NCBI GenBank assembly: GCA_028820845.1
Contig: JAPPII010000082.1
Location: 13,686-47,025, forward strand
DNA: 33,340 bases
Origin: Candidatus Poribacteria bacterium
GTDB taxonomy: Bacteria; Poribacteria; WGA-4E; WGA-3G
Direction of reading: 5' to 3'
Shown here: positions 11,784 to 32,571 of the stretch, one piece after another
Position numbering within the stretch: the first letter of the stretch is position 1
How the letters are laid out: each line of letters opens with the position of its first letter
Translations under genes and position numbers: made by a program
The notes under the pieces: model-generated
Told to the model about the DNA's origin: nothing
Seen by the model: only the letters and a program-made list of their open reading frames with translations
Database searches by the model: none

Positions 11784-14309
11784 ATGGACTACGTGAACGT
11801 TGCTTTTCCGTTATCAGTCAATCAGGTTTTTACCTACGGCGTGCCGTCTCAGCTCGATACAGTTTTGCAGCCCGGCGTCCGAGTCTTAGCACCGTTTCGT
11901 AGAACGCATGAGGAAGGAGTCGTCGTTGAACGTATCAAGGAAACAGATCTTGATCCGGACGTTATCAAAGACATCTCCGACTGCCTCGATGAGACCCCTA
12001 CATTTTCTTCTGAGATGCTCACGCTCACCAGGTGGATGGCGGATTACTACGTCTCCTCATGGGGAGCAGCCCTTTTTTCTGCCGTGCCAGCCGCAGTGCG
12101 TAGCCAAAGGCAGCAACGCGTACGCCTTATACCTGAAGCACCAAAACCGCGGGGTAAAATCCAAAAAGCACTCGTCTCTACTTTGGAAGCAGAGGGTGAG
12201 CTTTCACCCAATCAACTTGCCCGACGCATCGGTTTAAGCGAGCGAGAACTCCGTCCAAGGATTACTGCCCTCCGTGAAAAAGGTGTTGTAGATGTCCAGG
12301 TTACCCACAAACCGAAAGCGACCGCGCAGGTAACCCAAGTCGCGAGTTTAGCCTTACCAGACACCGATATTAAAGCAGAGATCGCCGAACTTAAAAGCCA
12401 CGCAAATACTGATAGCAGTGTATCTGCATCGTCTGCAAGTAGACCCCGTATCGCTGCCACGAAGCACGCTGCGATCCTGCAACTCTTGCTCAACGAAGCT
12501 GTTCCTTTAGCAACAGCAGAACTTATGAAACGGGTAAACACTGGTATTTCTATACTCCGCACGCTCGAAAGACGTGGATTTATCCATATTAAACCTGCGC
12601 AAGTCGTTCGTAATCCCCTAAATGCTGAACCGATTGCGCCGACCCAACCCCTGCTGCTGACTGCAGAACAGTTAAGGGCATTTTTGGAAATTCGACATGC
12701 ACTCGCGTCCCAAGCTCAGAACAAAGCCGAACACCCGCCGACTTTTCTCCTGCACGGCGTGACCGGTAGCGGAAAAACGGAGGTGTACATGCAGGCGATG
12801 GCGGATATCCTCAAAAACGGAAAATCGGTCATCGTCCTGGTCCCAGAAATCTCGCTGACACCGCAAACTGCGTCTCGGTTCGTCGGGCGTTTTGGCGAAC
12901 AGGTCGCTATCCTCCACAGTCGCTTGAGTAACGGCGAACGCTACGACCAATGGCACCGTATCCAGAGAGGCGAAGCCAGTATTGTAATTGGACCGCGCTC
13001 TGCTGTCTTCGCACCCGTCAAAAATCTCGGATTGTTGGTTATAGATGAGGAGCATTCGGACTCTTACAAATCCGATACCGCACCGCGTTATCACGCGCGA
13101 GAGGTAGCACAAAAACGGAGTGAACTCGCAAACTGTCCCGTCCTACTTGGAAGTGCAACCCCGGCACTTGAGAGTTTTCATCTCGCAAAAAATGGAAGTT
13201 ACCGACTCCTCAACTTACCGACGCGTGTTCTCGACAGAAAGATGCCCGAGGTCCATATCGTCGATATGCGACGCGAATTGAAGAAGGGCAACCGCACGAT
13301 CTTCTCCGATCTGCTCCGAAGCGCAATGGAGCAATGTCTTGTCCGGCGAGAACAGATTATCCTGTTTCTCAATCGGCGCGGACATTCTACCTACGTTTTC
13401 TGTCGAACCTGTGGGTATGTCGAACAGTGCAACAACTGCTCTATCTCAATGACGTTTCACTTTGAGAGCAAGCAACTTATCTGTCACCACTGCGGCGATA
13501 AACGTCCAAACCAGACAACGTGTCCACAGTGTGGCAGTCCTGCCATTCGCTATTTTGGACTCGGCACAGAATCTGTCGAGCAGGAGGTACGGAAAGCCTT
13601 TCCAAAAGCCAACATACAACGGTTTGATGCTGATTCGACGGCTCGGAAAAACGCACATCAGCAAATCTTAGAGGCATTTGAAGGTCAAAAAATAGACATT
13701 CTCATAGGCACACAGATGGTCTCGAAAGGATTAGACTTCCCAAACGTTACACTTGTCGGGGTCATTGCTGCTGATACCGCACTGAACTTGCCTGACTTCC
13801 GAGCCGGTGAACAGACCTTCAGTTTACTAACGCAGGTCGCAGGACGTTCTGGACGCGCCGAACTCGAAGGCAAAGTCGTCATACAGACCTATATGCCTGA
13901 GCATTACTGCATCGCAGCCGCACAGAAACATGATTACGACGGTTTTTATTCCCAAGAACTCGAAGCGCGGAATGCCTTCCGATACCCGCCATTTTCACAC
14001 GTCGCAACACTCTTACTCCGCGGTAAAAATGAGAAAGAGGTTATAGACACTGCGCACACCGTGCAGGAGCATCTCGAAACCTGGCAGACGGATCACGGAG
14101 CAAGCCCACATCCTGTGGAAATCCTCGGTCCCGCACCGGCACCGCTCTCGAAAATTGAGGGGAAATTTCGGTGGCATTTCTTGCTCCGAAGCAACGCCGT
14201 TGAAAAAATAAGTCAACTTCTTAGGTACCTAACGCACGAGCCACCCGTCACAATTAAATCAAACGCAGTTGAACTTGTGATTGACATCGATCCAACAAAT
14301 ACACTATGA
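11784..14309 (+). CDS. priA: Primosomal protein N' (replication restart helicase PriA)
   Basis: SF2 3'-5' helicase that recognises stalled forks and reloads the replisome. The 841-residue protein shows the N-terminal 3'-end-binding domain (MDYVNVAFPLSVNQVFTYGVP), a winged-helix region (about 115-290, longer and Ala/Thr-rich compared with the 732-residue E. coli protein), Walker A GVTGSGKT (325-332), DEEH (421-424) and GSATPALES. Eight zinc cysteines sit at 540, 543, 549, 552, 567, 570, 580 and 583, and helicase motifs GTQMVSKGLDFPNVTLV and QVAGRSGR follow. All catalytic and zinc positions are present. GAGGG is about 13 bases from the ATG. Confidence 0.96.
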   Translation: MDYVNVAFPLSVNQVFTYGVPSQLDTVLQPGVRVLAPFRRTHEEGVVVERIKETDLDPDVIKDISDCLDETPTFSSEMLTLTRWMADYYVSSWGAALFSAVPAAVRSQRQQRVRLIPEAPKPRGKIQKALVSTLEAEGELSPNQLARRIGLSERELRPRITALREKGVVDVQVTHKPKATAQVTQVASLALPDTDIKAEIAELKSHANTDSSVSASSASRPRIAATKHAAILQLLLNEAVPLATAELMKRVNTGISILRTLERRGFIHIKPAQVVRNPLNAEPIAPTQPLLLTAEQLRAFLEIRHALASQAQNKAEHPPTFLLHGVTGSGKTEVYMQAMADILKNGKSVIVLVPEISLTPQTASRFVGRFGEQVAILHSRLSNGERYDQWHRIQRGEASIVIGPRSAVFAPVKNLGLLVIDEEHSDSYKSDTAPRYHAREVAQKRSELANCPVLLGSATPALESFHLAKNGSYRLLNLPTRVLDRKMPEVHIVDMRRELKKGNRTIFSDLLRSAMEQCLVRREQIILFLNRRGHSTYVFCRTCGYVEQCNNCSISMTFHFESKQLICHHCGDKRPNQTTCPQCGSPAIRYFGLGTESVEQEVRKAFPKANIQRFDADSTARKNAHQQILEAFEGQKIDILIGTQMVSKGLDFPNVTLVGVIAADTALNLPDFRAGEQTFSLLTQVAGRSGRAELEGKVVIQTYMPEHYCIAAAQKHDYDGFYSQELEARNAFRYPPFSHVATLLLRGKNEKEVIDTAHTVQEHLETWQTDHGASPHPVEILGPAPAPLSKIEGKFRWHFLLRSNAVEKISQLLRYLTHEPPVTIKSNAVELVIDIDPTNTL

Positions 14310-14361
14310 TAGTTATCAGTCAACCAACAACTAACAACCATTAAAAAGGAATTAATTATAA

Positions 14362-15315
14362 ATGGGCAACCGGATATTTGATAAACTCGCCGACTCGGAG
14401 TTGCTTGCACGCAGCCCGATCCTCGTCTTCGCCGCGGACCCACTCGCATCCGCTGGGATTCAAGGACTCGGACAAGTGCAACACCCTAAACCTCACTACC
14501 GAACACACGCTGAGTTTTTGCAACTTCAACGCGACCTCGCCGCTGATGGACAGTTAGATGGACTCTTGATGACCCCGGCTGATGCAGAAACCCTCGCACT
14601 CGAAGAGAACCTGTTTGAAAGCACACCGATTACACCGATCGTCCGAATGAACTCAGAAACAGCCATCTGGAACCCACGGTTCGGGGTCTATACCTCGCGG
14701 CTGTCGATGCCATTTCAGACGGTCTTCCCTGAAGACATGCAACGCTATTGCGAGGCATTGATCGGGCCCGCACTTGAATGCCGAGTTAACCTGGGGTTGT
14801 ACTCCATCACACTCAACAACGACCCGATCGCTGATGAGCGGATGCTACAGGCATATATACAGTTTGCACACGTTGTTGGTGAGATTGAGGGTTTTGACCA
14901 TCTATTAGAGGTATTTTTACCAAACATTAAATTACCAGGAATGGACGATGAAAAACGGGGTATGTACGTCGCCGACTCCATTGTTCGCACGATGAGTTAC
15001 CTCCGCAAACACCAGCGTCCGCGCTTTATCAAAACCGCCTACACAGCATCAGAGGTCTGGAGTGAGTTATGCCAATTTGATACCACATTGGTCATCGGTG
15101 CCTTAGGTGGACCTCGACAAAACGCACGTAGCACATTTGCTTTGGCGCACAACGTTGTCAGCAATGGGGGACGCGCAATCCTATTTGGACGGACTATCTT
15201 CGGTGAGGACGCACCTGTCGGCTTCGTGCAATGTCTCCGACGGGTCCTTGATGGCGAATTGGAGCCGCAAGATGCCCATGCGGAATATCAAAAAATCCTC
15301 CGATCGCGGCTATAA
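14362..15315 (+). CDS. Class I aldolase-like TIM-barrel protein
   Basis: A 317-residue protein that looks like the DeoC/FbaB/LsrF class I aldolase superfamily. Evidence is the C-terminal half: FIKTAY with Lys224 at the Schiff-base position of that family, followed by VIGALGGPRQNARST and NGGRAILFGRTIFG, which match the phosphate-binding strands 7 and 8 of LsrF/DhnA-type aldolases. The N-terminal half (ILVFAADPLASAGIQGL, LDGLLMTPADAETL) is compatible but diverged. The substrate is unknown. AAGGA (14346-14350) supports the start. The ATP-grasp gene begins 15 bases after its stop, so the two are almost certainly cotranscribed and may share a pathway. Confidence 0.65.
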   Translation: MGNRIFDKLADSELLARSPILVFAADPLASAGIQGLGQVQHPKPHYRTHAEFLQLQRDLAADGQLDGLLMTPADAETLALEENLFESTPITPIVRMNSETAIWNPRFGVYTSRLSMPFQTVFPEDMQRYCEALIGPALECRVNLGLYSITLNNDPIADERMLQAYIQFAHVVGEIEGFDHLLEVFLPNIKLPGMDDEKRGMYVADSIVRTMSYLRKHQRPRFIKTAYTASEVWSELCQFDTTLVIGALGGPRQNARSTFALAHNVVSNGGRAILFGRTIFGEDAPVGFVQCLRRVLDGELEPQDAHAEYQKILRSRL

Positions 15316-15330
15316 CCCCGAGGTCTCTAA

Positions 15331-16590
15331 ATGCCAGAACGCGCCTCAGAGAAACCGCGTATCCTTCTTTTACTTCCGACGCGAACCTACCGAGCAACCG
15401 ATTTTCTCGCTGCCGCTATGAAACTCAATGTAGAGGTAGTCGTTGCCTCAGAGGAAGCCGCTACAACCGCAGATGTATCGCCTCGCGATTCGCTTGTGTT
15501 TGATTTCAGTACGCCAATCGCCGCAACACAGACGATCACCGAATTTGCTGAAACACATCCAATCACTGCCATCGTCGGCGTTGATGACGATACCACCTTG
15601 CTCGCTACAATTGCAGCAGCGACACTCGGACTTCCACACAACCCCATTGAATCTGCCAAAGCCACGCGCAATAAGTACCGCTTACGGCAGACACTTGCAA
15701 AAGGGGGTGTTTCATGTCCAAGGTTCAGACGTTTCTCAATCCATGACGATCTTATCAAAATCACTAACAACGTTGATTTTCCGTGTGTTATTAAACCGCT
15801 CTCTCTATCTGCAAGCCGCGGAGTCATTCGAGCGGACGCGCCGTGTGAATTTACTGATGCCTTCGAGCGCATCACAACACTTCTCCAAACTTTGGAAACG
15901 GAAGCAGACACAGACACTGCGTCTTCATATTCGGAGGTATTGGTCGAAGATTACATCCCCGGCATAGAGGTAGCACTTGAAGGCATTCTTTTGGATGGGG
16001 AACTCAAGACATTGGCACTGTTTGATAAACCTGACCCACTTGAAGGACCATTTTTTGAGGAGACGCTTTACATCACGCCTTCGCGTCTATCGTCCGAGGT
16101 TCAGAATGAACTACAAAGCGCGACCGCAGAAGCCGCCGCTGCATTAGGACTCCGCCATGGCCCCATCCACGCTGAATTACGTCATAATACAAAAGGCGCG
16201 CACCTCATTGAAATCGCTGCCCGGACGATTGGTGGGCTATGCGCACGCACGCTGCGATTTGGCACTGGCATGTCGTTGGAAGAACTTGTCATCCGACACG
16301 CAATTGGGCAGCACGTGGAAATGCTTCATCGGGAGCAACAGGCAGCGGGGGTGATGATGATACCTGTTCCGAAGGCGGGGATTCTTGGTGAAGTACGTGG
16401 CACGTCTGCAGCCCGCAAGGTAGACGGTGTTACGGAAGTCAACATCACAATCCCTATTGGTGGTGAAGTCGTCCCGTTGCCGGAAGGCGCACGGTATCTC
16501 GGTTTCATTTTCGCCCGCTCGGAAACACCAGAGGCAGTTGAGGCAGCACTCCGTGAGGCGCATTGTCGTTTGGAATTTGTGATAATGTAA
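15331..16590 (+). CDS. ATP-grasp domain carboxylate-amine ligase-like protein
   Basis: A 419-residue ATP-grasp enzyme. An N-terminal Rossmann-like part (RILLLLPTRTYRATDFLAAA) is followed by a central ATP-grasp fold: NKYRLRQTLAKGGVSCPRF, FPCVIKPLSLSASRGVI (ATP lysine), VLVEDYIPGIEVALEGIL, then GPIHAELRH...LIEIAARTIGG, where the Glu and the later acidic residues bind Mg-ATP. The C-terminal 90 residues (AAGVMMIPVPKAGIL onward) resemble the extra domain of L-amino-acid ligases. Such enzymes join a carboxylate to an amine through an acyl-phosphate, so dipeptide or amide synthesis is likely, with unknown substrates. It forms a tight pair with the aldolase-like gene. Confidence 0.8.
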   Translation: MPERASEKPRILLLLPTRTYRATDFLAAAMKLNVEVVVASEEAATTADVSPRDSLVFDFSTPIAATQTITEFAETHPITAIVGVDDDTTLLATIAAATLGLPHNPIESAKATRNKYRLRQTLAKGGVSCPRFRRFSIHDDLIKITNNVDFPCVIKPLSLSASRGVIRADAPCEFTDAFERITTLLQTLETEADTDTASSYSEVLVEDYIPGIEVALEGILLDGELKTLALFDKPDPLEGPFFEETLYITPSRLSSEVQNELQSATAEAAAALGLRHGPIHAELRHNTKGAHLIEIAARTIGGLCARTLRFGTGMSLEELVIRHAIGQHVEMLHREQQAAGVMMIPVPKAGILGEVRGTSAARKVDGVTEVNITIPIGGEVVPLPEGARYLGFIFARSETPEAVEAALREAHCRLEFVIM

Positions 16591-16691
16591 AGCAAAATTC
16601 TATTTTTTATGATTTTTTATCCCTTTTGTGTTATGGTAAAAAAATTGTAAGTAGCAACTTAGATTCGATTACGAAAAAAGGAGAAATTTTA

Positions 16692-19295
16692 ATGAAAAAA
16701 TTATTTTCATTCATCCGTTTCAAGTCTATATTTGGACTTTTTTTTATCTTCACCCTACTCACCACTTCGACTTTATACCTACCAAGCAGCTTCGCCCAAG
16801 ATTCCCCACAATGGCATCTACCTGAAGGTGCCACGGCACGACTTGGTAAGGGCTGGTTATATGACATCCAGTATTCGCCCGATGGCACCCGGCTCGCAGT
16901 CTCTGGCTCCCTCGGAATTTGGATATATGATACAGCAACCGATGAGCCCCTTGAACTCTTTACCGGAATTAAGTATGGTATTCCTTCCATCGCCTATACC
17001 CCAGATGGAACTATCCTCGCAGGCGGCGGCAACGATGCCACCATCCGCCTCTGGAATACAGCAACGGGAGAAATGTTGCACACCCTCACGGGCCATCAGC
17101 GAAGTGTCCGCAGCGTCGCTTTTAGTCCTGACGGCAGCATGCTTGCCAGCGGCAGTCGAGACAATGACGTTAGACTCTGGAATCCCGACACAGGCGAACT
17201 AATCAATACTTTAACAGGACATACAGAAGGTATTTCCAGCATCGCTTTCAGCCCAGATGGTAAGACGCTCATTAGTGGTAGTAATGACGATACCGTCCGG
17301 GTCTGGAATGTAGAAACAGGTGAACTTCAGCACACATTGATGGCGCATCAAGATGATGTCTACAGTGTGGCTTTCAGTCCAGACGGTAAGACATTGGCAA
17401 GTGGAGATTTGAGCGCGATCATCAACCTATGGGACCCTGCGACAGGCGTGCATAAGATAACACTCACAGGGCATACCTCAAGTATCTTCGATATAAACTT
17501 CAGTGATGACAGCAGTTTGCTTGCCAGCGCAAGTGAAGATGACACCGTGCGTTTGTGGCACGTCAACACAGGTGCCCATATAAACACCTTCGTCGGACAC
17601 ACAGCTGATGTGTATCGAGCTATTTTCGCACCAGATGGGCAGACACTCGCCACCGGTGCCTGGGATGCATCTATTCGCTTCTGGGACCTCCGTACCGGAA
17701 AACAACTCAAGACTATCAGTGGACACACGGATGTCGTTTTAAGCGTTACATTCAGCGCAGACGGCAGCACCTTAGCAACACGCAGCTGGGATAAAACCAT
17801 CCGCCTCTGGGATGCAAACACCGGGGAACTCAGACATACGCTTATCGGACATCAGGAAAATGTAGACGTCGTTGTGTTCAACCCCGACGGCAGCATCATT
17901 GCAAGTGGCAGTCAAGACAATACCGTCCGCCTCTGGAATGCCGAAACAGGGGCACTCCTGAGGACCCTGAGAGGGCACAGCTCTTACCTCATCAGTCTCG
18001 CCTTTAATGCTGATGGAAGCATGTTAGCCAGTGGCAGTGAAGATGATACAATAAGCATCTGGAATGTCACAGCAGGCACCCACATCACCACGCTTTTCGG
18101 ACACGAAGCCGGCGTTGAGACACTCGCCTTTAGTCCCGACAGCAGCAAACTTGTCAGCGGCAGTCGAGACGATACAATACGCATCTGGAATGTAGAAACC
18201 TACGAAATCTTGCACACCCTTACTGAACATGAAGACGACGTGGTGAGTGTCGCCTTGAGCCCAGACGGAAATACTTTCGCCAGTGCAGGCAGAGACAGGA
18301 CAATACGCTTCTGGAATATAGAAACCGGGGAACTTCAAGATACACTACTGGATGAAGAGAATCAAGCGACAAGTGTCGTTTTCACACCTGATGGTAGAGT
18401 CCTTGCCAGTGGAAGCAGTGACACCACCATCCGTTTGTGGGACGCGACCATGGGCACGGAACTGATCCTATTAGATGGACATACGTGGAATGTCACAACT
18501 GTGGCGGTCAACTCCGAAGGATCCCTACTGGCAAGTGGAAGCTTTGATGGCACAGTGCTATTGTGGAATCTAACACTTGCACGAGAAACCGGGGAACTCT
18601 TAGCAGCACTCGTGGATGACCTCTTAGGAGATTTAAACAATGATGGGACTGTCAATATCCTTGATCTTGTCCTCCTCGCATCGCGTTTCGATGAAACAGG
18701 GGAAAATGAGGCAGACCTAAACAAAGACGGGATCGTCAATATACGAGACCTCGTACTACTCGCAGATGCATTGGGCGGTGCTGGAGGGGCATTTCTGGCG
18801 AACGCATTGGAAGGCACCGGTGCCGCACCCGCACTGCAAGCCAGTTCAACCGAACTGTTGACTGCAGCTGAGGTCATGAACTGGTTGAGCCTTGCTAAAC
18901 AAGAAGGCTCCTTGGACGCTCTTGAAACCGGGCTCCCCAAAGGACTCTCCTATCAAAGAGGAATCCAGGTACTGGAACGGCTCTTGGAGCTGCTGGTACC
19001 GAAAACAACAGCACTCTTACCCAACTATCCCAACCCGTTCAATCCTGAAACGTGGATTCCCTACCAATTGGCAGCACCTGCAAATGTCGCCATAACCATC
19101 TATTCGACGAATGGACAGTTGGTCCGGACACTCCAATTGGGACATCAAGCAATGGGTGTATATGAAACCCGGAGCCGGGCGGCACACTGGGATGGTAGGA
19201 ATGAATTTGGCGAACAGGTCGCCAGTGGTGTCTATTTCTATGTGTTGACGGCAGGGGACTTCTCTGCTACGCGGAAAATGTTGATACGGAAGTAG
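16692..19295 (+). CDS. Secreted 14-repeat WD40 protein with dockerin and FlgD/Por-like C-terminal domain
   Basis: An 867-residue exported protein. Residues 1-36 are a signal peptide (MKKLFSFIRFKS, hydrophobic core, likely cleavage SFA^QD). From about 45 to 630 I count 14 WD40 repeats of about 42 residues, most with SPDG and IRLWN/IRFWN blade signatures; this fits two seven-bladed propellers. Residues 646-695 hold two calcium-loop repeats, GDLNNDGTVNILDLVLLA and DLNKDGIVNIRDLVLLA, the layout of a type I dockerin. The tail, about 777-867, starts NYPNPFNPETWIPYQL and ends FSATRKMLIRK, the FlgD-like/Por-secretion type sorting domain. AAGGAG is about 9 bases before ATG 16692; an in-frame extension to 16563 overlaps the ATP-grasp gene and lacks a signal peptide. 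Its partner and location are unknown. Confidence 0.9.
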   Translation: MKKLFSFIRFKSIFGLFFIFTLLTTSTLYLPSSFAQDSPQWHLPEGATARLGKGWLYDIQYSPDGTRLAVSGSLGIWIYDTATDEPLELFTGIKYGIPSIAYTPDGTILAGGGNDATIRLWNTATGEMLHTLTGHQRSVRSVAFSPDGSMLASGSRDNDVRLWNPDTGELINTLTGHTEGISSIAFSPDGKTLISGSNDDTVRVWNVETGELQHTLMAHQDDVYSVAFSPDGKTLASGDLSAIINLWDPATGVHKITLTGHTSSIFDINFSDDSSLLASASEDDTVRLWHVNTGAHINTFVGHTADVYRAIFAPDGQTLATGAWDASIRFWDLRTGKQLKTISGHTDVVLSVTFSADGSTLATRSWDKTIRLWDANTGELRHTLIGHQENVDVVVFNPDGSIIASGSQDNTVRLWNAETGALLRTLRGHSSYLISLAFNADGSMLASGSEDDTISIWNVTAGTHITTLFGHEAGVETLAFSPDSSKLVSGSRDDTIRIWNVETYEILHTLTEHEDDVVSVALSPDGNTFASAGRDRTIRFWNIETGELQDTLLDEENQATSVVFTPDGRVLASGSSDTTIRLWDATMGTELILLDGHTWNVTTVAVNSEGSLLASGSFDGTVLLWNLTLARETGELLAALVDDLLGDLNNDGTVNILDLVLLASRFDETGENEADLNKDGIVNIRDLVLLADALGGAGGAFLANALEGTGAAPALQASSTELLTAAEVMNWLSLAKQEGSLDALETGLPKGLSYQRGIQVLERLLELLVPKTTALLPNYPNPFNPETWIPYQLAAPANVAITIYSTNGQLVRTLQLGHQAMGVYETRSRAAHWDGRNEFGEQVASGVYFYVLTAGDFSATRKMLIRK

Positions 19296-23041: not shown

Positions 23042-24178
23042 ATGGAGAACTATAGTCGTTTTACAGACCCCAAACTGCCTGCTATCTATGAAAAAGTCCA
23101 AGCAGAGCAGCGCCTCTCTTTTGAGGAAGGGGTTTCGCTTTATGAAAGTCCAGACATTACTGGCGTTGGATTTATTGCAAACTCTATGCGTGAACGCTTA
23201 AACGGGAACGTCGCCTACTACAACATCAACCAACACATCGATTATTCAAATGTCTGTATCCTCCACGCTCGATGCCACTTTTGTGCATTTGCCCGAAAAA
23301 ATATGCAGACCGAAGGGGCGTGGGAGATGAGCGTTGACGAATTTTTAGACAAGGCGATGTACTCTATAGAACAGGGATGTACCGAAATCCACAGTGTTGG
23401 TGGGTTACACCCGAAGCTGCCATTCGACTACTACCTCGACATCATCCGAGGTCTCAAAGAACGGATGCCACAGGTACACCTCAAATTTTTCACAGCCGTT
23501 GAAATTCATCACTTCTCACGCATCTTTAAGATGTCAATAGAAGAAGTCCTCACCCAATTACGGGAAGCAGGTTTGGATTCGCTGCCCGGAGGCGGTGCTG
23601 AAATCTTCGCAGAAGAGACCCGTGAGAAAATCTGTCCCGGCAAATTAAGTGCTGAAGGTTGGTTAGAAGTTCACGATATAGCACATCGCCTCGGAATTGC
23701 TACCAACGCAACAATGCTCTACGGACACCTTGAGACAAACGAGGACAGAGTTGACCATTTCATCAGGCTACGGGAGCAGCAGGATAAATCTGGTGGCTTT
23801 GTGACCTTCATTCCATTGGCGTTCCATCCGCTGAATACCCGAATGGCATACCTGCCCTCAACAACCGGGCTAACAGATATTCGGAACATCGCCGTTGCGC
23901 GCCTTATGCTCGATAACGTCCCCCATATCAAAGTTTACTGGATTATGACCGGTTTGAAGACCGCACAAGTCGCACTCCGCTTCGGTGCAGACGATATTGA
24001 TGGCACGGTAACCGAGGAGAAAATCACACACATGGCAGGCGCAGACACGCCAGAGGCTGTTTCTGTTTCCCAACTAACGCACCTCATTGAAGAAGCCGGC
24101 TTCGTGCCTGTCGAGCGCGATACACTTTACAACGAAATTATTCGAGAGGGGAATCAGTGGTACCGAAAAGCCGCATAA
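23042..24178 (+). CDS. mqnE: Aminofutalosine synthase (MqnE)
   Basis: Radical SAM enzyme of the futalosine menaquinone pathway, which joins the chorismate-derived enolpyruvyl benzoate to SAM. The 378-residue protein has the family blocks YNINQHIDYSNVC, CHFCAFARK, HSVGGLHPKLPFDYYLDII, LPGGGAEIFAEETREKICPGK and the C-terminal FGADDIDGTV. The cluster cysteines are Cys72, Cys78 and Cys81, giving Cx5CxxC instead of the usual CxxxCxxC; the surrounding sequence is otherwise well conserved. AGGA about 11 bases upstream supports ATG 23042. mqnA overlaps its last 22 bases. Confidence 0.92.
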   Translation: MENYSRFTDPKLPAIYEKVQAEQRLSFEEGVSLYESPDITGVGFIANSMRERLNGNVAYYNINQHIDYSNVCILHARCHFCAFARKNMQTEGAWEMSVDEFLDKAMYSIEQGCTEIHSVGGLHPKLPFDYYLDIIRGLKERMPQVHLKFFTAVEIHHFSRIFKMSIEEVLTQLREAGLDSLPGGGAEIFAEETREKICPGKLSAEGWLEVHDIAHRLGIATNATMLYGHLETNEDRVDHFIRLREQQDKSGGFVTFIPLAFHPLNTRMAYLPSTTGLTDIRNIAVARLMLDNVPHIKVYWIMTGLKTAQVALRFGADDIDGTVTEEKITHMAGADTPEAVSVSQLTHLIEEAGFVPVERDTLYNEIIREGNQWYRKAA

Positions 24179-24996
24179 GGGTAGGCGCAGTTTCGTTTCT
24201 GAATACCAAACCGCTTATTTACCCCCTTTTGAACAAAGAGATTAAAACGGATATTGCCCTCAGTGTTGATGTTCCGAGTCGTGTTTCAACACTTTTAAGT
24301 AAAGACGAATTGGATGTCGGACTGATTCCGATTGTCGAATATTATCGTGCGAATCCGTCGAATACACCTTACTGTATTCTACCAGATATATCAATCACAT
24401 CACACAGCAACGTCCGAAGTATCCAATTGTTTAGTCGTGTGCCAGTTCAGGAGATTCGACGCATTGCACTCGATACGAACTCGCGTTCCTCTGTCGCGCT
24501 GCTGAAAATTCTACTCGCTGAAAAGTATAAAATTTCACCAGCATTCATCCCGTGCGCGCCAACGGTAACGCCACGTGCGGCTCTTGAAAACCGTCAAGAC
24601 CCGCCTTTTGAGGCAGTCCTGCTCATCGGAGACGCAGCACTCAGGCATCTCGGTTCGACGGAGTATAGCATTGACCTCGGTGAAGTGTGGTATAAGTTTA
24701 CGGGGCTACCCTTTGTCTACGCCTGCTGGGTTGCAAGGCAAGAAGTGGATCTCGGTGACTTACCACAAGTGCTTCTTGAATCAAAGGAACGTGGGACGGC
24801 ACAAATACCCGAAATTGCACGGATTGAAGCGAAAAAATTGGGACTACCGGAAACGCTCTGTCTCGCCTATTTGCAAGATAGCATCAAATACGATCTGAAC
24901 GAAGATGCGATCGCAGGCATGGAACTCTTTTATAAATATGCGGTAAAAAATGATCTCGCACCGCCGTGCCGTAGTCTCTCTTTTCACGCCAACTGA
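24157..24996 (+). CDS. mqnA: Chorismate dehydratase (MqnA)
   Basis: First step of the futalosine pathway: dehydration of chorismate to 3-enolpyruvyl benzoate. The 279-residue protein has a periplasmic-binding-protein-like fold with the family start IRVGAVSFLNTKPLIYPL, then LSKDELDVGLIPIVEYY, DTNSRSSVALLKILL, AVLLIGDAALRH and DLGEVWYKFTGLPFVYACW. It begins with GTG at 24157 inside the mqnE end (22-base overlap), preceded by GAGGGG at about 6 bases, so translation is coupled. Together with mqnE it shows that this organism makes menaquinone without the MenFDHCEBA route; mqnB, mqnC and mqnD lie elsewhere. Confidence 0.94.
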   Translation: MVPKSRIRVGAVSFLNTKPLIYPLLNKEIKTDIALSVDVPSRVSTLLSKDELDVGLIPIVEYYRANPSNTPYCILPDISITSHSNVRSIQLFSRVPVQEIRRIALDTNSRSSVALLKILLAEKYKISPAFIPCAPTVTPRAALENRQDPPFEAVLLIGDAALRHLGSTEYSIDLGEVWYKFTGLPFVYACWVARQEVDLGDLPQVLLESKERGTAQIPEIARIEAKKLGLPETLCLAYLQDSIKYDLNEDAIAGMELFYKYAVKNDLAPPCRSLSFHAN

Positions 24997-27575: not shown

Positions 27576-30500
27576 TTAACCTTGAACCTGCACAGACGAA
27601 CTACCGTCCCCACGTTTCCTAACATTAATTTTGACAGGTATCCGTCTTGTCAACTCCTGAACATGGCTGATGAGAAAGATGCTGCGTCCCTGCATGCGGA
27701 GTCCCTCCAGTGCAGAGATAGCAACGTCGAGCGTCTCTCTGTCAAGCGTGCCAAAACCTTCATCAAGAAACAGCGAGTTGAGCTGCGCACGCCCGCGACT
27801 CAGATCCGCTAAGGCAAGTGCCAAAGCGAGACTCGTCAGGAATGATTCTCCACCAGAGAGGGTCTCAACAGGACGTTCTTCGTTGGCATTCCAGCGATCA
27901 ATGACACTCAAATCGCCGATAGTCTCAACTTTAAGTTGGTAGCGCTCTGAAGTAAGATATTTTAACTGCTCGTTTGCCAAACTGCCCATCTGCCGAAACA
28001 TAATCTCCAAAGCAAAATCGCGTAGATCGTTTCTGGGGATTGTTTCTTGTAATCTTTTCCAACGCATCAATTCTGCTTCAGCCGCCGCTATTTCACCACC
28101 AAGAGCCTCTCGTTTTTCAAGTGCATCTTTCAAGTCATCAATTCTCTGCTGTTGCGCCCCAACTTCTTGCTGCTTTATCTGAAGATGTTCCCCAATTTCT
28201 TTCGCTTCGGCCTCAATCCGCGCCAACGCTTTCGGATCAAAGGGTGTTTCCTCAAATCGTCCTTTCAAGTCGGCGATTGTTAACTGGAGTTGTTGTTTTT
28301 CATCCTCATGATCAGTAATATAAGCGGTTATTTCTTGCAATTGCACATCGTCTCGGAAGGCGTTGTCTTGCGCTTCCGGTGAATCAAATCCTGCCATCTC
28401 TAACTTATCGAAGTAAGTCTTTTGTGCCCTTTCAAGTTTTTCAGCGGCTTCTTTATGCTGCCTTTCGGAAATCCCGTGAGCAGTCTGCTTTTGAGTGGAT
28501 AGATTGATACTCTCCTGTAATTGCTGTTGCGCCTCATCGCGTTCATCTTCTTTCGCCTGCAGTTCCACTTCTAACTTATCAATAGCGGCATCAATCTCAG
28601 CTTCCGTTTCCAAACCACCCGTCTTCCCACGAACGGTGTCTAAAAGCCTTTTCCCTTCGCGTCGGTATTCGTCTATTTCATCTTGTAAGTTTTCGCGGTT
28701 ATCGGACAAACTTTTCAGATCACGTCGATCTGTTTCAATGTTAGCGTTAAGCAGCTTAAGGTCGGTCTCTGCAGTATCCAGTTTATCCTTGCGCGTCTCA
28801 ACTTCCTCAATTTTTTTGTCAAACTGATCCACCGCCACATCTGGCGTAACACCGTGGAAAGTCTCCGGCAGGAATTCCCAAAAACGCTCCTCAATAGAAT
28901 CAACGTCAACTTGCAAATTGGAAACGGTATTTTTCACATCTTGCAACTGTTTTTCGGCTTGGTTCAGAGATTTCTCCTCACGGGCAATGTCAGTTTCACA
29001 GGTCTCAAGTTGCTGTGCTACCATATTGTAAGCATGCGATGCTGTTGTCTGGGCTTTCTCGGCTGTTCCGAGAGCTGCAATAGCGGCATCCGCACTTTCA
29101 ATCTGTTCAGCTGTCCAGTGGGATGAAATATCTTCATCCGGGTAAATCCCCTGCCACTCCGCGAGGCGTTCTACCTTATCGTCCTGCAGCGTCTCTATTT
29201 TGAATTCGCAATCCTTAATTTGCTGATTAGTATTATGTCTATTTTGTTGCGTTTGCCCCTGTTTCACCTTCAAAGCCTGCATCTGATCTTGGGCAGTTTT
29301 AGCCTCGGCCCTCGCGCCTTTTAAGGCATTCTCAGCATTCTGCAGTAGGTTATCGTCTTCAGATTCCGCAATATGAACAAAGGAATGATCTGTTGATCCA
29401 CATACCTGACACGGTTCTCCCGGTTGAAGGCGTTGTCGAAGTTTATTGATAGGATTTGCCAAAAGTGCCAACTCTCGTTTTTCTTCACAGCGTTGGACTG
29501 CTTCTGCCGCGCGTTGATATATTCCCTCGCGTTCCGCCAACTTTCCATCAATCTGCTCAAGCTCTGCGTCTAAATCTGCCTTTGCTTCCTTCAGTTGACG
29601 CAAACGGCCTTCAGCATCCACCAAATCATTTTCCGCCGTTTCATATTTCTGCGCGACCGGCAATGCTTCGCTCGCTTGCTGTTTCTGAGTGATCCATTCC
29701 TCGCGGGTCCCAACTGCCAGAAGTTTGTTCAATTCAGCGGTAGCCGTTTCCAATATAGACTTCGCATTGGTCTTTTCTGCAAGTCGCTCTTCACGAATTT
29801 CGGACAATTCTTTAATTTCATGTTTCAGTGACACGATTTTCTTACCGTGATCTACTTCGTTTGCCAATGCCGTTTCCAACTGCTTCTGTTGTGAATCGAG
29901 TTGTGTGGAAAGAACATTTGCTTGAGTGAGACGGTGCTGCCTGTCTGATGGAAGTGGATTCTCATCCAAAAAGGTTTGCGCGTCTTTAATCTGTTTCTGT
30001 AACCCGGTTTGCTCAGTTTCTTTGTTGGCTAACTCGTCCGAAAGCGTGTCAATCTCATCATTCAAATCCGACAATTTTGGAGTCCGATTCTCCGCTTCAG
30101 CAAACTGATTGGTGGCCCGTCCTACATCTAATTTAGCATCAGCATAAACATCGGTTTTCTTGATATGTGCGGTTGCTGCTATCTGATACGCTTCTTCTTT
30201 TCTGTCAAAATTGGCTTTGTCTGTTTCAACTTGCTTTTCCGCATCCGTTTTCTCAGCCGTTGCTGTATCGAGTGCTTCCTTTGCTTTTTGAAGATCGGAT
30301 TTTGCAGCATCATACATCTGTTTCTCAGGACGGAGACGTTCAGCACGTTGGGCATTTTCCAATTCTGCTTGGAGGGCATCAATTCCTTGCTGCTGACCTG
30401 AGAGTTCTACTTGACGCTCTTCTGAAAATTGGAGTTTCTCATAGTCCTCTTTACGCTTTGTTTCCCGAATCTTCTCCTGTTGAATTTCCCGGCTTTGTGT

Positions 30501-31220
30501 CTCTAAGAGATTGGCTTCGTTTTTCAATCCGTCAAGTTCTGTCTCTGCTGCCCCAAGTTGATCAGGAGAGGCTTCCGGGATTTTTTCTATTTCCGCAACG
30601 ACATCGGCATTTGCCGCCTCAACCTCGGCAACCTTTTCATTTAACCTATCTTTCAATATCTCATAGATATCAATCCCCGCCGTTGCTTCCAAGATCGTGC
30701 GTCTATTTTCCCTACTCGCTTTCAAGAAGGCGGCGAACTCACCTTGTGCTAACATGACAGAACGTCTGAAAGCACCAAAATCAAGTCCCAAGAGAGATTC
30801 AACCTCCTCGCTCACTGTCCTTTGGCTTGGACCGAGTGCCTTCCCTTTACCACTCAGTCTATCGCTGATGACTTTACCATCCTCCGCATAAGACAATCGC
30901 ACCTCTGCAGCACCTCTACGCCTAATGGACCAAGAGGCGATATAAACTGTTCCCTTTGCTATAAAATGTACTTCAGCAAATCCTTCCTTTTCACCATGGC
31001 TGATAAGATGCCTCGGATGCTGACTCCCCGTTCCACTCAAGCGCGGTGTTTTTCCATAGAGTGCGACGCAAATCGCGTCTAACAACGTCGTTTTCCCCGC
31101 ACCCGTTGGACCGGTAATCGCCACAAGGGACGTATCGCCTAATAACGGACCTTCAAAATCAATATCTATTTCTTCACGAAAGCTGTTTAGGTTCTTAAGC
31201 TTGAGTCTACATATTTTCAT
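27576..31220 (-). CDS. sbcC: SbcC/Rad50-type nuclease ATPase subunit
   Basis: ATPase of the SbcCD complex, which cleaves hairpins and blocked DNA ends. The 1214-residue protein has a Walker A ITGPTGAGKTTLLDAI (35-50), two long coiled-coil arms (about 190-560 and 640-1040), a zinc hook CQVCGS at 604-609 close to the middle, the ABC signature TLSGGESFLTSLALALAL (about 1115-1132) and Walker B LFLDEGFGTLDRE with Asp1153 and Glu1154. All motifs are complete and the length is normal for the family. Its ATG overlaps the sbcD stop as ATGA, so translation is coupled. Confidence 0.97.
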   Translation of the reverse strand: MKICRLKLKNLNSFREEIDIDFEGPLLGDTSLVAITGPTGAGKTTLLDAICVALYGKTPRLSGTGSQHPRHLISHGEKEGFAEVHFIAKGTVYIASWSIRRRGAAEVRLSYAEDGKVISDRLSGKGKALGPSQRTVSEEVESLLGLDFGAFRRSVMLAQGEFAAFLKASRENRRTILEATAGIDIYEILKDRLNEKVAEVEAANADVVAEIEKIPEASPDQLGAAETELDGLKNEANLLETQSREIQQEKIRETKRKEDYEKLQFSEERQVELSGQQQGIDALQAELENAQRAERLRPEKQMYDAAKSDLQKAKEALDTATAEKTDAEKQVETDKANFDRKEEAYQIAATAHIKKTDVYADAKLDVGRATNQFAEAENRTPKLSDLNDEIDTLSDELANKETEQTGLQKQIKDAQTFLDENPLPSDRQHRLTQANVLSTQLDSQQKQLETALANEVDHGKKIVSLKHEIKELSEIREERLAEKTNAKSILETATAELNKLLAVGTREEWITQKQQASEALPVAQKYETAENDLVDAEGRLRQLKEAKADLDAELEQIDGKLAEREGIYQRAAEAVQRCEEKRELALLANPINKLRQRLQPGEPCQVCGSTDHSFVHIAESEDDNLLQNAENALKGARAEAKTAQDQMQALKVKQGQTQQNRHNTNQQIKDCEFKIETLQDDKVERLAEWQGIYPDEDISSHWTAEQIESADAAIAALGTAEKAQTTASHAYNMVAQQLETCETDIAREEKSLNQAEKQLQDVKNTVSNLQVDVDSIEERFWEFLPETFHGVTPDVAVDQFDKKIEEVETRKDKLDTAETDLKLLNANIETDRRDLKSLSDNRENLQDEIDEYRREGKRLLDTVRGKTGGLETEAEIDAAIDKLEVELQAKEDERDEAQQQLQESINLSTQKQTAHGISERQHKEAAEKLERAQKTYFDKLEMAGFDSPEAQDNAFRDDVQLQEITAYITDHEDEKQQLQLTIADLKGRFEETPFDPKALARIEAEAKEIGEHLQIKQQEVGAQQQRIDDLKDALEKREALGGEIAAAEAELMRWKRLQETIPRNDLRDFALEIMFRQMGSLANEQLKYLTSERYQLKVETIGDLSVIDRWNANEERPVETLSGGESFLTSLALALALADLSRGRAQLNSLFLDEGFGTLDRETLDVAISALEGLRMQGRSIFLISHVQELTRRIPVKINVRKRGDGSSSVQVQG

Positions 31221-32389
31221 TCAGTACCCTCAACCATCTGGATTAATTCACGAAAAGTTTGTGTCAAGGTTTTATCAGGCGGCTCCCCATCAAATTTCCT
31301 TTTGTGAAATTGTTTAAAGATTTCTTCGGGACGTTTCATATCTTCAATAGGGATTTCCAATCCGCGTGTCATTTCCGCTGATTCAATCTCAACACTCAGG
31401 ACTTCCCCGCCTTGCTCACTGAACGCTTGGCGCACTTTATCATTAATCCCCGTTTGCGGTTTGTTTAATTTCAGTTTAACTTGGATATACTTCCCATCCC
31501 AAGCCTGTGTCCGTGCGTCCCAGAGAACAGAGTCTTCATCTCCCTTGACTATACACAATTCCTTGAAGACAGGAATCTCAATAGCCTCATCTCGCACCAA
31601 TGTTCCGTTATCAGATAACTCCAGCAGCCGCACCGCTTTAGAATAACCCGTTTCGTTGAATCTCAGTGGAATCGGTGAGCCTGAATATCGGATTGGGTAA
31701 TCAGTGCCGTTAATTGTTTGTGGTCTATGGAGGTGCCCCAAAGCAACATAATTCACATCTTCAGGAAAATCGGGGGCATGGATAGCGGTCGCGCCACCAA
31801 TCTGGACATTTCGCTCAGAATCGGTTATTGTTCCACCTTGAACGAAGAGATGTCCCATCAAAATCTTTGGAAGCTCCGCTGGCATAGCCGAAACACAATC
31901 AGCATAGAACGATTTGAGCCGTTCTCGATACCGTTCATTCCTTTCTATCTCTGTCTCATAGGAAACATGTGGAAGGTCTGTTTCGGTCAGATAAGGGACA
32001 GCCGCAACCATTACGCGCGGATTGTCGGGTGGAAAGGGTAACACACATTTGGGAACCTCATTTGCCAGACCGATGACGTGAATCCTGCCCATTTCCAGAA
32101 ACTCGCGTGGAGCCTCCAAGTGTCTTGCAGAATCGTGATTGCCTGCGGTGATGACCGTATAGGTATCGGTTTTATTAAAAAGACGGTAGAGGAATCGATA
32201 GTAGAGGTTGGTTGCCTCTGCTGATGGGAGGGCAGTGTCAAAAATATCTCCTGAAACGAGGAGAAGATCAACACCACGTTGCTGAATTGTTTCAAGGAGC
32301 CAGTCGAGGAATTGTTTGTGTTCGTCAAGTCGGGAACGTTCGTGAAGTCGTTGTCCAATATGCCAATCGGCTGTGTGTATAATTTTCAT
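31217..32389 (-). CDS. sbcD: SbcD/Mre11-type nuclease subunit
   Basis: Mn-dependent nuclease partner of SbcC. The calcineurin-like phosphoesterase motifs are intact: MKIIHTADWHIGQ (Asp and His ligands), LLVSGDIFD, ITAGNHDSARH, ILMGHLFVQGG and VALGHLHRPQ. A C-terminal capping domain follows. From ATG 32389 the protein has 390 residues and begins exactly as the family does. An alternative ATG at 32437 has an AGGA at 8 bases and would add 16 residues (KSTENSVKSGKQTAT and Met), so the start is not certain. The upstream region to 32571 is AT-rich and non-coding, with no clear promoter. Confidence 0.95.
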   Translation of the reverse strand: MKIIHTADWHIGQRLHERSRLDEHKQFLDWLLETIQQRGVDLLLVSGDIFDTALPSAEATNLYYRFLYRLFNKTDTYTVITAGNHDSARHLEAPREFLEMGRIHVIGLANEVPKCVLPFPPDNPRVMVAAVPYLTETDLPHVSYETEIERNERYRERLKSFYADCVSAMPAELPKILMGHLFVQGGTITDSERNVQIGGATAIHAPDFPEDVNYVALGHLHRPQTINGTDYPIRYSGSPIPLRFNETGYSKAVRLLELSDNGTLVRDEAIEIPVFKELCIVKGDEDSVLWDARTQAWDGKYIQVKLKLNKPQTGINDKVRQAFSEQGGEVLSVEIESAEMTRGLEIPIEDMKRPEEIFKQFHKRKFDGEPPDKTLTQTFRELIQMVEGTE

Positions 32390-32571
32390 AGTTGCTGTCT
32401 GTTTACCACTCTTTACGGAGTTTTCGGTAGATTTCATAGATATTATCCTAACAGATTTTAAATCTATTTTCAAGCAGATTCACATAAACACATAAAATTT
32501 TTGGCTCATGTAAATAAGGTATGTCCAATATTTTATACGTTGTAGTAAACTATGCTCATGGTAATATCCTT

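Follow-up and report, generated by a model that had tools for sequence, protein, structure and literature searches.

The window, as the whole stretch of DNA analysed here will be called, is 33,340 nucleotides of a Candidatus Poribacteria bacterium (assembly GCA_028820845.1, contig JAPPII010000082.1, positions 13,686 to 47,025 of the forward strand), which is genome G000, contig C82, in a survey sample of 84 genomes of the phylum. On its plus strand lie, one after the other, the genes of a class I aldolase-like protein (P0001, 317 amino acids, 14362..15315) and of an ATP-grasp ligase of the L-amino acid ligase type (P0002, 419 amino acids, 15331..16590). The clearly probable reading of this pair is that of two independent enzymes side by side, in which the codon for one cysteine of the ligase, Cys304, has become a TGA decoded as selenocysteine (Sec) in a single sub-lineage, that of genomes G069, G077 and G079. 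The ligases would then form a candidate selenoprotein family, of a kind absent from the families catalogued in Table 1 of PMC13188914, with the window holding the Cys form.

Matches to the ligase occur in 57 of the 84 genomes, of which 54 are orthologues; two weak matches (G003, G025) and a remnant of 39 residues (G066) were set aside. In the codon alignment of the 54 copies, position 304 (16240..16242 in the window, where it reads TGC) is Cys in 51 copies, encoded by TGT or TGC, TGA in three, and nothing else in any. The genes of G069, G077 and G079 are full length save for this one TGA, which falls exactly on codon 304. Each of these genomes has a single ligase match, so that the TGA copy is the only copy, and the three come from separate deposits, one of them a closed chromosome (OX638316.1). 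They form one clade in the tree (support 100/94), with the Cys-bearing G083 as a weakly supported sister (93/64), and one change from Cys to TGA lies behind all three copies. The position is also Cys in four full-length homologues from planctomycetes (47–54% identity); a second origin of Sec was sought there, and none of the four has TGA at codon 304.

Since TGA is one substitution away from both TGT and TGC, and since the ligase is missing from 17 genomes that keep the aldolase (the G066 remnant being in one of these), an ordinary nonsense mutation has to be considered, whereby the gene is decaying, or makes a protein of 303 residues, in three genomes. It is very improbable. A TGA at codon 304 is only one of the 118 (in G000) or 123 (in G083) stops that a single substitution could create, and the aligned part of the 54 copies contains no other in-frame stop. 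The 115 codons downstream of the TGA have, for the three pairs among the TGA copies, a rate of synonymous substitution (dS) of 0.12–0.57 and of nonsynonymous substitution (dN) of 0.008–0.034. Their dN/dS of 0.059–0.066 is lower than that of the upstream part (0.117–0.157), and Fisher tests for the downstream constraint give p values of 4e-5, 5e-17 and 1e-15. With purifying selection this strong past the TGA, the C-terminal 115 residues must be translated and selected. A further rival is a gene split at the TGA, with a downstream restart and two pieces that assemble; at two of the loci, L245 and L246, out of three, a mechanically called open reading frame (ORF) of about 107 codons does start shortly past the TGA. 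Such a split has no need to fall exactly on an invariant cysteine, and the codons around the TGA remain conserved, which leaves it with next to no probability.

The machinery for Sec is widespread in the phylum. Matches over the cut-off were obtained for selB in 75 of the 84 genomes (2 of 14 controls) and for selA in 71 (1 of 14 controls), in both cases including the three TGA genomes and G000. The selD gene is found over its cut-off in 75 genomes, G069, G077 and G079 among them, and all 75 matching genes contain a single in-frame TGA, so that SelD, too, appears to be a selenoprotein in this phylum. A tRNA-Sec scores over the gathering threshold in 74 of the 84 genomes and in 5 of the 14 controls, where matches near the threshold (for example in G003 and G004) may be other tRNAs. 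In G069, G079, G000 and G083 a strong tRNA-Sec (about 78 bits), with a TCA anticodon according to ARAGORN, lies beside selB. No tRNA-Sec passes the threshold in G077, where selB ends 71 bases from the contig end and the absence is therefore uninformative. With selA, selB, selD and tRNA-Sec present across the phylum, Poribacteria very probably decode UGA as Sec. SelA and SelB are likewise reported from most symbiont bins of a sponge metagenome (PMC5649159). A TGA at an invariant cysteine, in the sole copy of the gene and in one clade, with constraint downstream and the Sec machinery in place, is best read as a replacement of Cys by Sec, and we infer that Sec is actually inserted at residue 304 of the TGA copies.

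The ligase scores over the Pfam cut-offs of ATP-grasp_4 (112.6 against 27), LAL_C2 (58.6 against 29.4) and ATPgrasp_N (30 against 27). Among solved L-amino acid ligases it matches BL00235 at 1.4e-34 (residues 76–416) and BacD at 2e-17, and it misses the equivalog cut-offs of BacD (65.1 against 850) and DdaF (55.2 against 840) by far. On these sequence matches the family is an ATP-grasp enzyme of the BL00235/BacD type. Residues E282 (codon 16174..16176), E294 and R298 (motif E294-I-A-A-R298, 16210..16224) are invariant in 12 of 12 sequences and align with their counterparts in BL00235 and BacD; we take E282 to be a metal ligand and E294–R298 to handle metal and phosphate.

Cys304 follows R298 by six residues and would lie on the loop just past the E294-x-x-x-R298 motif. 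A Trp of BacD aligns with G302, two residues before Cys304; it is an Ala in the 3wo1 chain, which is evidently the W332A variant. A review counts Trp332 among the key residues of the BacD pocket (PMC6920838). A second cysteine, Cys152 (15784..15786), stands three residues before Lys155. With TGA counted as Cys, all 54 poribacterial copies have both cysteines, and Cys152 too is kept in all four planctomycete homologues. Where remoter ATP-grasp proteins (about 25% identity) can be aligned at residue 304, they show V, F, I, N and, in one case, C. A Cys or Sec at this place is thus peculiar to the family.

Several observations weigh against selenocysteine, or against the place given to residue 304. 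The three TGA copies share one origin and so are not independent cases. The structure model of the ligase has a predicted local distance difference test score (pLDDT) below 50 over residues 274–311, so that a structure-based placing of Cys304 was ruled out and its position at the pocket rests on the alignment. Every gene inspected in G069 and G079 stops at TAA or TAG, none at TGA, and use of TGA as a stop was seen only in G077 of the three. This last point would also suit a TGA read as another residue, such as Trp or Cys, through suppression or a changed code. Against such recoding, TGA terminates the ligase gene itself in G077 and priA in the window, the tRNA-Sec beside selB has a TCA anticodon, and the residue is Cys in the 51 other copies; we give it hardly any credence.

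The evidence from a Sec insertion sequence (SECIS) is also weak. The bacterial model used, taken from the legend of Fig. 2 in PMC13188914, has a loop of 3–9 nt with a G in its first two positions, a stem of 4–16 bp, a spacing of 16–37 nt and an energy of at most −7.5 kcal/mol. In the three TGA copies the hairpin CGGCA[CGGGAA]UG(U/C)CG (loop in brackets) stands 22 nt after the UGA and has a 5 bp stem, in keeping with the rules for loop, stem and spacing. The energies of the fold around it are −4.6 (G069), −7.5 (G077) and −7.2 (G079), so that only G077 reaches the cut-off. In each of five genes, hairpins that fit the looser rules follow 197–244 of 395 codons (50–62%), and with the energy rule they still follow 31–63 of 395 (8–16%). 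Such a loose-rule hairpin is also present in 45 of the 51 Cys copies, and the Cys copy of G083 has the very hairpin of the TGA copies. The full stem occurs in 17 of the 54 copies and the CGGG loop in 14; the two occur together in four (the TGA trio and G083), as independence predicts, and these four joint carriers share ancestry. At the equivalent position the window has UGGCA[CUGGCA]UGUCG (16260..16275, plus strand), which is weak evidence. Hairpins with G-rich loops were also found in selD of these or near genomes, for example GGCUC[CGGGU]GAGCU in G000 and GGCUCC[AGG]GGAGCU in G069 and G079. The SECIS was rejected as a proof of Sec, as it does not discriminate against background codons; the hairpin of the TGA copies is compatible with Sec.

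At the locus of G083 (L035), the region of codon 304 combines the Cys form with the SECIS-like hairpin of the TGA copies, a possible reversal from Sec to Cys. The G083 hairpin may be left over from an earlier Sec form, or it may have existed beforehand. Remnant SECIS-like structures after reversals from Sec to Cys are described in PMC1794560.

By homology, the ligase would use ATP to turn a carboxylate into an acyl phosphate, whose acyl group it would then join to an amine. To our knowledge, the ATP-grasp superfamily is not known for thiol catalysis. As a rule, selenocysteine persists at sites where a cysteine takes part in the chemistry, so that the exchange of Cys for Sec points to residue 304 as probably reactive. 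Most rare Sec proteins have evolved from Cys proteins (PMC1794560), and a selenol is the better nucleophile and has the lower pKa (section 8 of PMC13188914); in this light the exchange suggests a reactive thiolate at C304. Residue 304, as thiolate or selenolate, might thus act directly in catalysis or in redox control, and the chance that it does one or the other we put at somewhat better than even. Three roles would fit: (i) a covalent acyl carrier, (ii) a redox switch, perhaps together with C152, (iii) the binding of a thiol substrate or a metal. An unlikely, more specific version of the first is that the acyl phosphate reacts with Cys304 or Sec304 to form a thioester or selenoester on the enzyme, from which the acyl group passes to the acceptor; residue 304 would then be a covalent catalyst that selenium has improved in one lineage.

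Neither an ATP-grasp enzyme nor an amino-acid ligase appears among the 119 prokaryotic selenoprotein families and subfamilies of the 2026 Table 1 in PMC13188914. A search of the open-licence full text of PubMed Central, a scope that leaves most subscription papers and all preprints outside, gave no paper titled on a selenoprotein of the ATP-grasp or amino-acid ligase kind. If Sec304 is real, it would bring a new enzyme class into the selenoproteome, beyond the usual thioredoxin-like redox folds. The exchange of Cys and TGA also gives experiments a direct point of entry into an uncharacterised family of ligases in sponge symbionts. The three TGA proteins are probably misannotated, as standard gene callers would end them at residue 303.

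In the window, 15 bases separate the ORFs of the two enzymes, which stand at the end of a housekeeping run (rpsB-tsf-frr-cdsA-dxr-rseP-UDG-priA, where UDG is uracil-DNA glycosylase). The arrangement on the plus strand agrees with what the sequence-only reading had described, as do the assignments to an aldolase and a carboxylate-amine-type ligase, from profile matches in the one case and Pfam ATP-grasp_4 and LAL_C2 in the other. Its remark that neither gene has a known substrate holds as well. That reading had gone on to propose a dedicated two-gene module, in which aldolase and ligase act in one pathway towards an amide or dipeptide-like product, and had asked whether the two always occur together. 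They are often together: both genes are present in 46 of the 84 genomes, and in 39 of these 46 they are adjacent on one strand, which speaks for the module. They are not always together, for 17 genomes have the aldolase only and 8 the ligase only. At 1e-10 the ligase had no match in nine genomes from outside the phylum in which the aldolase has homologues. In 49 of the 78 loci listed in a wider scan, moreover, priA lies upstream of the aldolase at a distance of up to 400 bases; 3 further loci have it at about 400–520 bases, and in 7 the sequence breaks off there. The survey thus does not bear out the dedicated module, and a shared pathway is quite unlikely; aldolase and ligase are separate genes, neighbours rather than a fixed team. 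What is new here lies in the exchange of Cys and TGA within the ligase, which could not be seen from the window by itself.

All 39 adjacent pairs belong to the family of the window (f1), and within this one family the ligase often, though not always, accompanies the aldolase. The distance between the aligned stretches of the pairs is 18–338 bases; a value of 594 in G063 reflects a split match, the true distance from the first piece being 84. The shortest distance, 18, made up of the 15-base gap and a stop codon, is found only in G000, G067 and G072. Among the seven remaining genomes with both genes, in G013, G014, G015, G029 and G045 the ligase lies inside a contig with no aldolase beside it, and in G040 and G068, where both genes touch contig ends, adjacency is not decidable. 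Conserved neighbours of the ligase away from the aldolase were sought and set aside, as they are common only to near relatives within one genus. Outside the phylum, of 392 planctomycete genomes searched with the same ligase query, 4 have a full-length homologue and a fifth has a fragment of 50 residues (71% identity). The remnant in G066 (L010, G066:C17:246358-246474) stands after the aldolase and suggests a recent loss. The adjacency of priA and the aldolase (11784-15315 in the window) reaches wider than that of aldolase and ligase and, by the priA counts and the survey of the 84 genomes, priA is the more stable neighbour of the aldolase.

The aldolase itself has no Pfam match at an E-value of 0.01. 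Its C-terminal third matches the models of 2-amino-3,7-dideoxy-D-threo-hept-6-ulosonate synthase (ADH synthase), of LsrF-type aldolases and of archaeal class I fructose bisphosphate (FBP) aldolases, all far below the equivalog cut-offs (29.8 against 241, 24.1 against 297 and 21.6 against 430 bits, respectively). A profile built from 12 relatives reaches the ADH synthase MJ0400 at 7e-6 and LsrF at 2e-5. The AlphaFold2 model (pLDDT 88.7) has MJ0400 (2qjg) as its nearest structure, with a Z score of 24.1, a root mean square deviation of 2.9 and 14% identity over 255 aligned residues, followed by LsrF and archaeal class I FBP aldolases; identities in the ten best rows are 13–16%. Model residues 3–313 are matched to 2qjg, so that the barrel aldolase fold spans the whole chain.

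In MJ0400, the residue aligned with Lys224 (codon 15031..15033) is the lysine of IVKTSYTG, which we take to be the Schiff-base lysine of that enzyme. The sequence-only reading had made conservation of Lys224 a check on its proposal, and the residue is present in all 32 aligned sequences, that of the window among them, down to 32% identity; it is likely to be the catalytic Schiff-base lysine here too. Towards its C-terminus the aldolase has conserved GG and GR motifs that resemble what we take to be the phosphate site of the class I family, and a phosphorylated substrate is therefore likely.

The aldolase is present in 63 of the 84 genomes. Among the best 80 entries listed in a scan of GTDB genomes there are 78 loci, 58 of them titled Poribacteria; ten others (52–65% identity) belong to Armatimonadetes, Abditibacteriaceae, Fimbriimonadaceae and Latescibacterota, and the ten remoter ones (32–38%) include nine of planctomycete type. 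Taken together, profile matches and model indicate a separate and widespread new branch of the class I (DhnA/LsrF/ADH-synthase-like) aldolases, presumably a Schiff-base enzyme of the phosphosugar type.

A role as the sole FBP aldolase of the lineage was rejected. Class II FBP aldolase (PF01116) is found in none of the 58 genomes of family f1 and in 16 of the 26 others. G000 has, on contig C124, a gene of the tagatose-1,6-diphosphate aldolase type (348.2 against a cut-off of 184), and the six genomes of genus g8 (G018–G023, family f3) gave no match to this aldolase, PF01116 or PF01791 (PF00274 was not searched). The two latter observations leave no clean pattern of replacement across genomes. 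A link with sugar kinases was also dropped: the distant homologues L158 and L159 (33–36% identity) adjoin a PfkB kinase, and among the closer relatives the neighbours that were checked are not shared. One aldolase homologue, L065 in G024, has an in-frame TAA, owing to decay or a sequencing error.

Further along the window, positions 16563-19295 encode a WD40-repeat protein, in which the sequence suggests a dockerin-like stretch and, at the C-terminus, a sorting-like tail, PNPFNPETWIPYQL. At 23042-24996 a radical SAM protein with a CofH/MqnC C-terminal region adjoins a VitK2_biosynth protein, a pair that suggests what we presume to be the futalosine route to menaquinone. On the minus strand (27576-32473) an SbcC-like ATPase adjoins a calcineurin-like phosphoesterase, forming an SbcD-like pair.

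Both enzymes can be set beside known systems. The aldolase shares its fold and the position of its lysine with MJ0400 of M. jannaschii (2qjg/2qjh/2qji), LsrF of E. coli and the archaeal class I FBP aldolases; unlike these, its family has conserved stretches of its own, GLYSITLNN and HxLEVFxPN. The ligase has the ATP-grasp_4 and LAL_C2 domains and E282, E294 and R298 in common with BL00235 (PDB 3vot) and with the alanine-anticapsin ligase BacD (3vmm, 3wnz); where the ligase has Gly302 and Cys304 or Sec304, BacD as aligned has Trp and Met. As a candidate selenoprotein, it differs from the families listed in Table 1 of PMC13188914 in being an ATP-grasp enzyme, a kind not entered there, and in having no UxxC or CxxU motif at residue 304. 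With these same families it shares a pair of Cys and TGA at a conserved cysteine, the Sec machinery, and a rare Sec form among many Cys forms.

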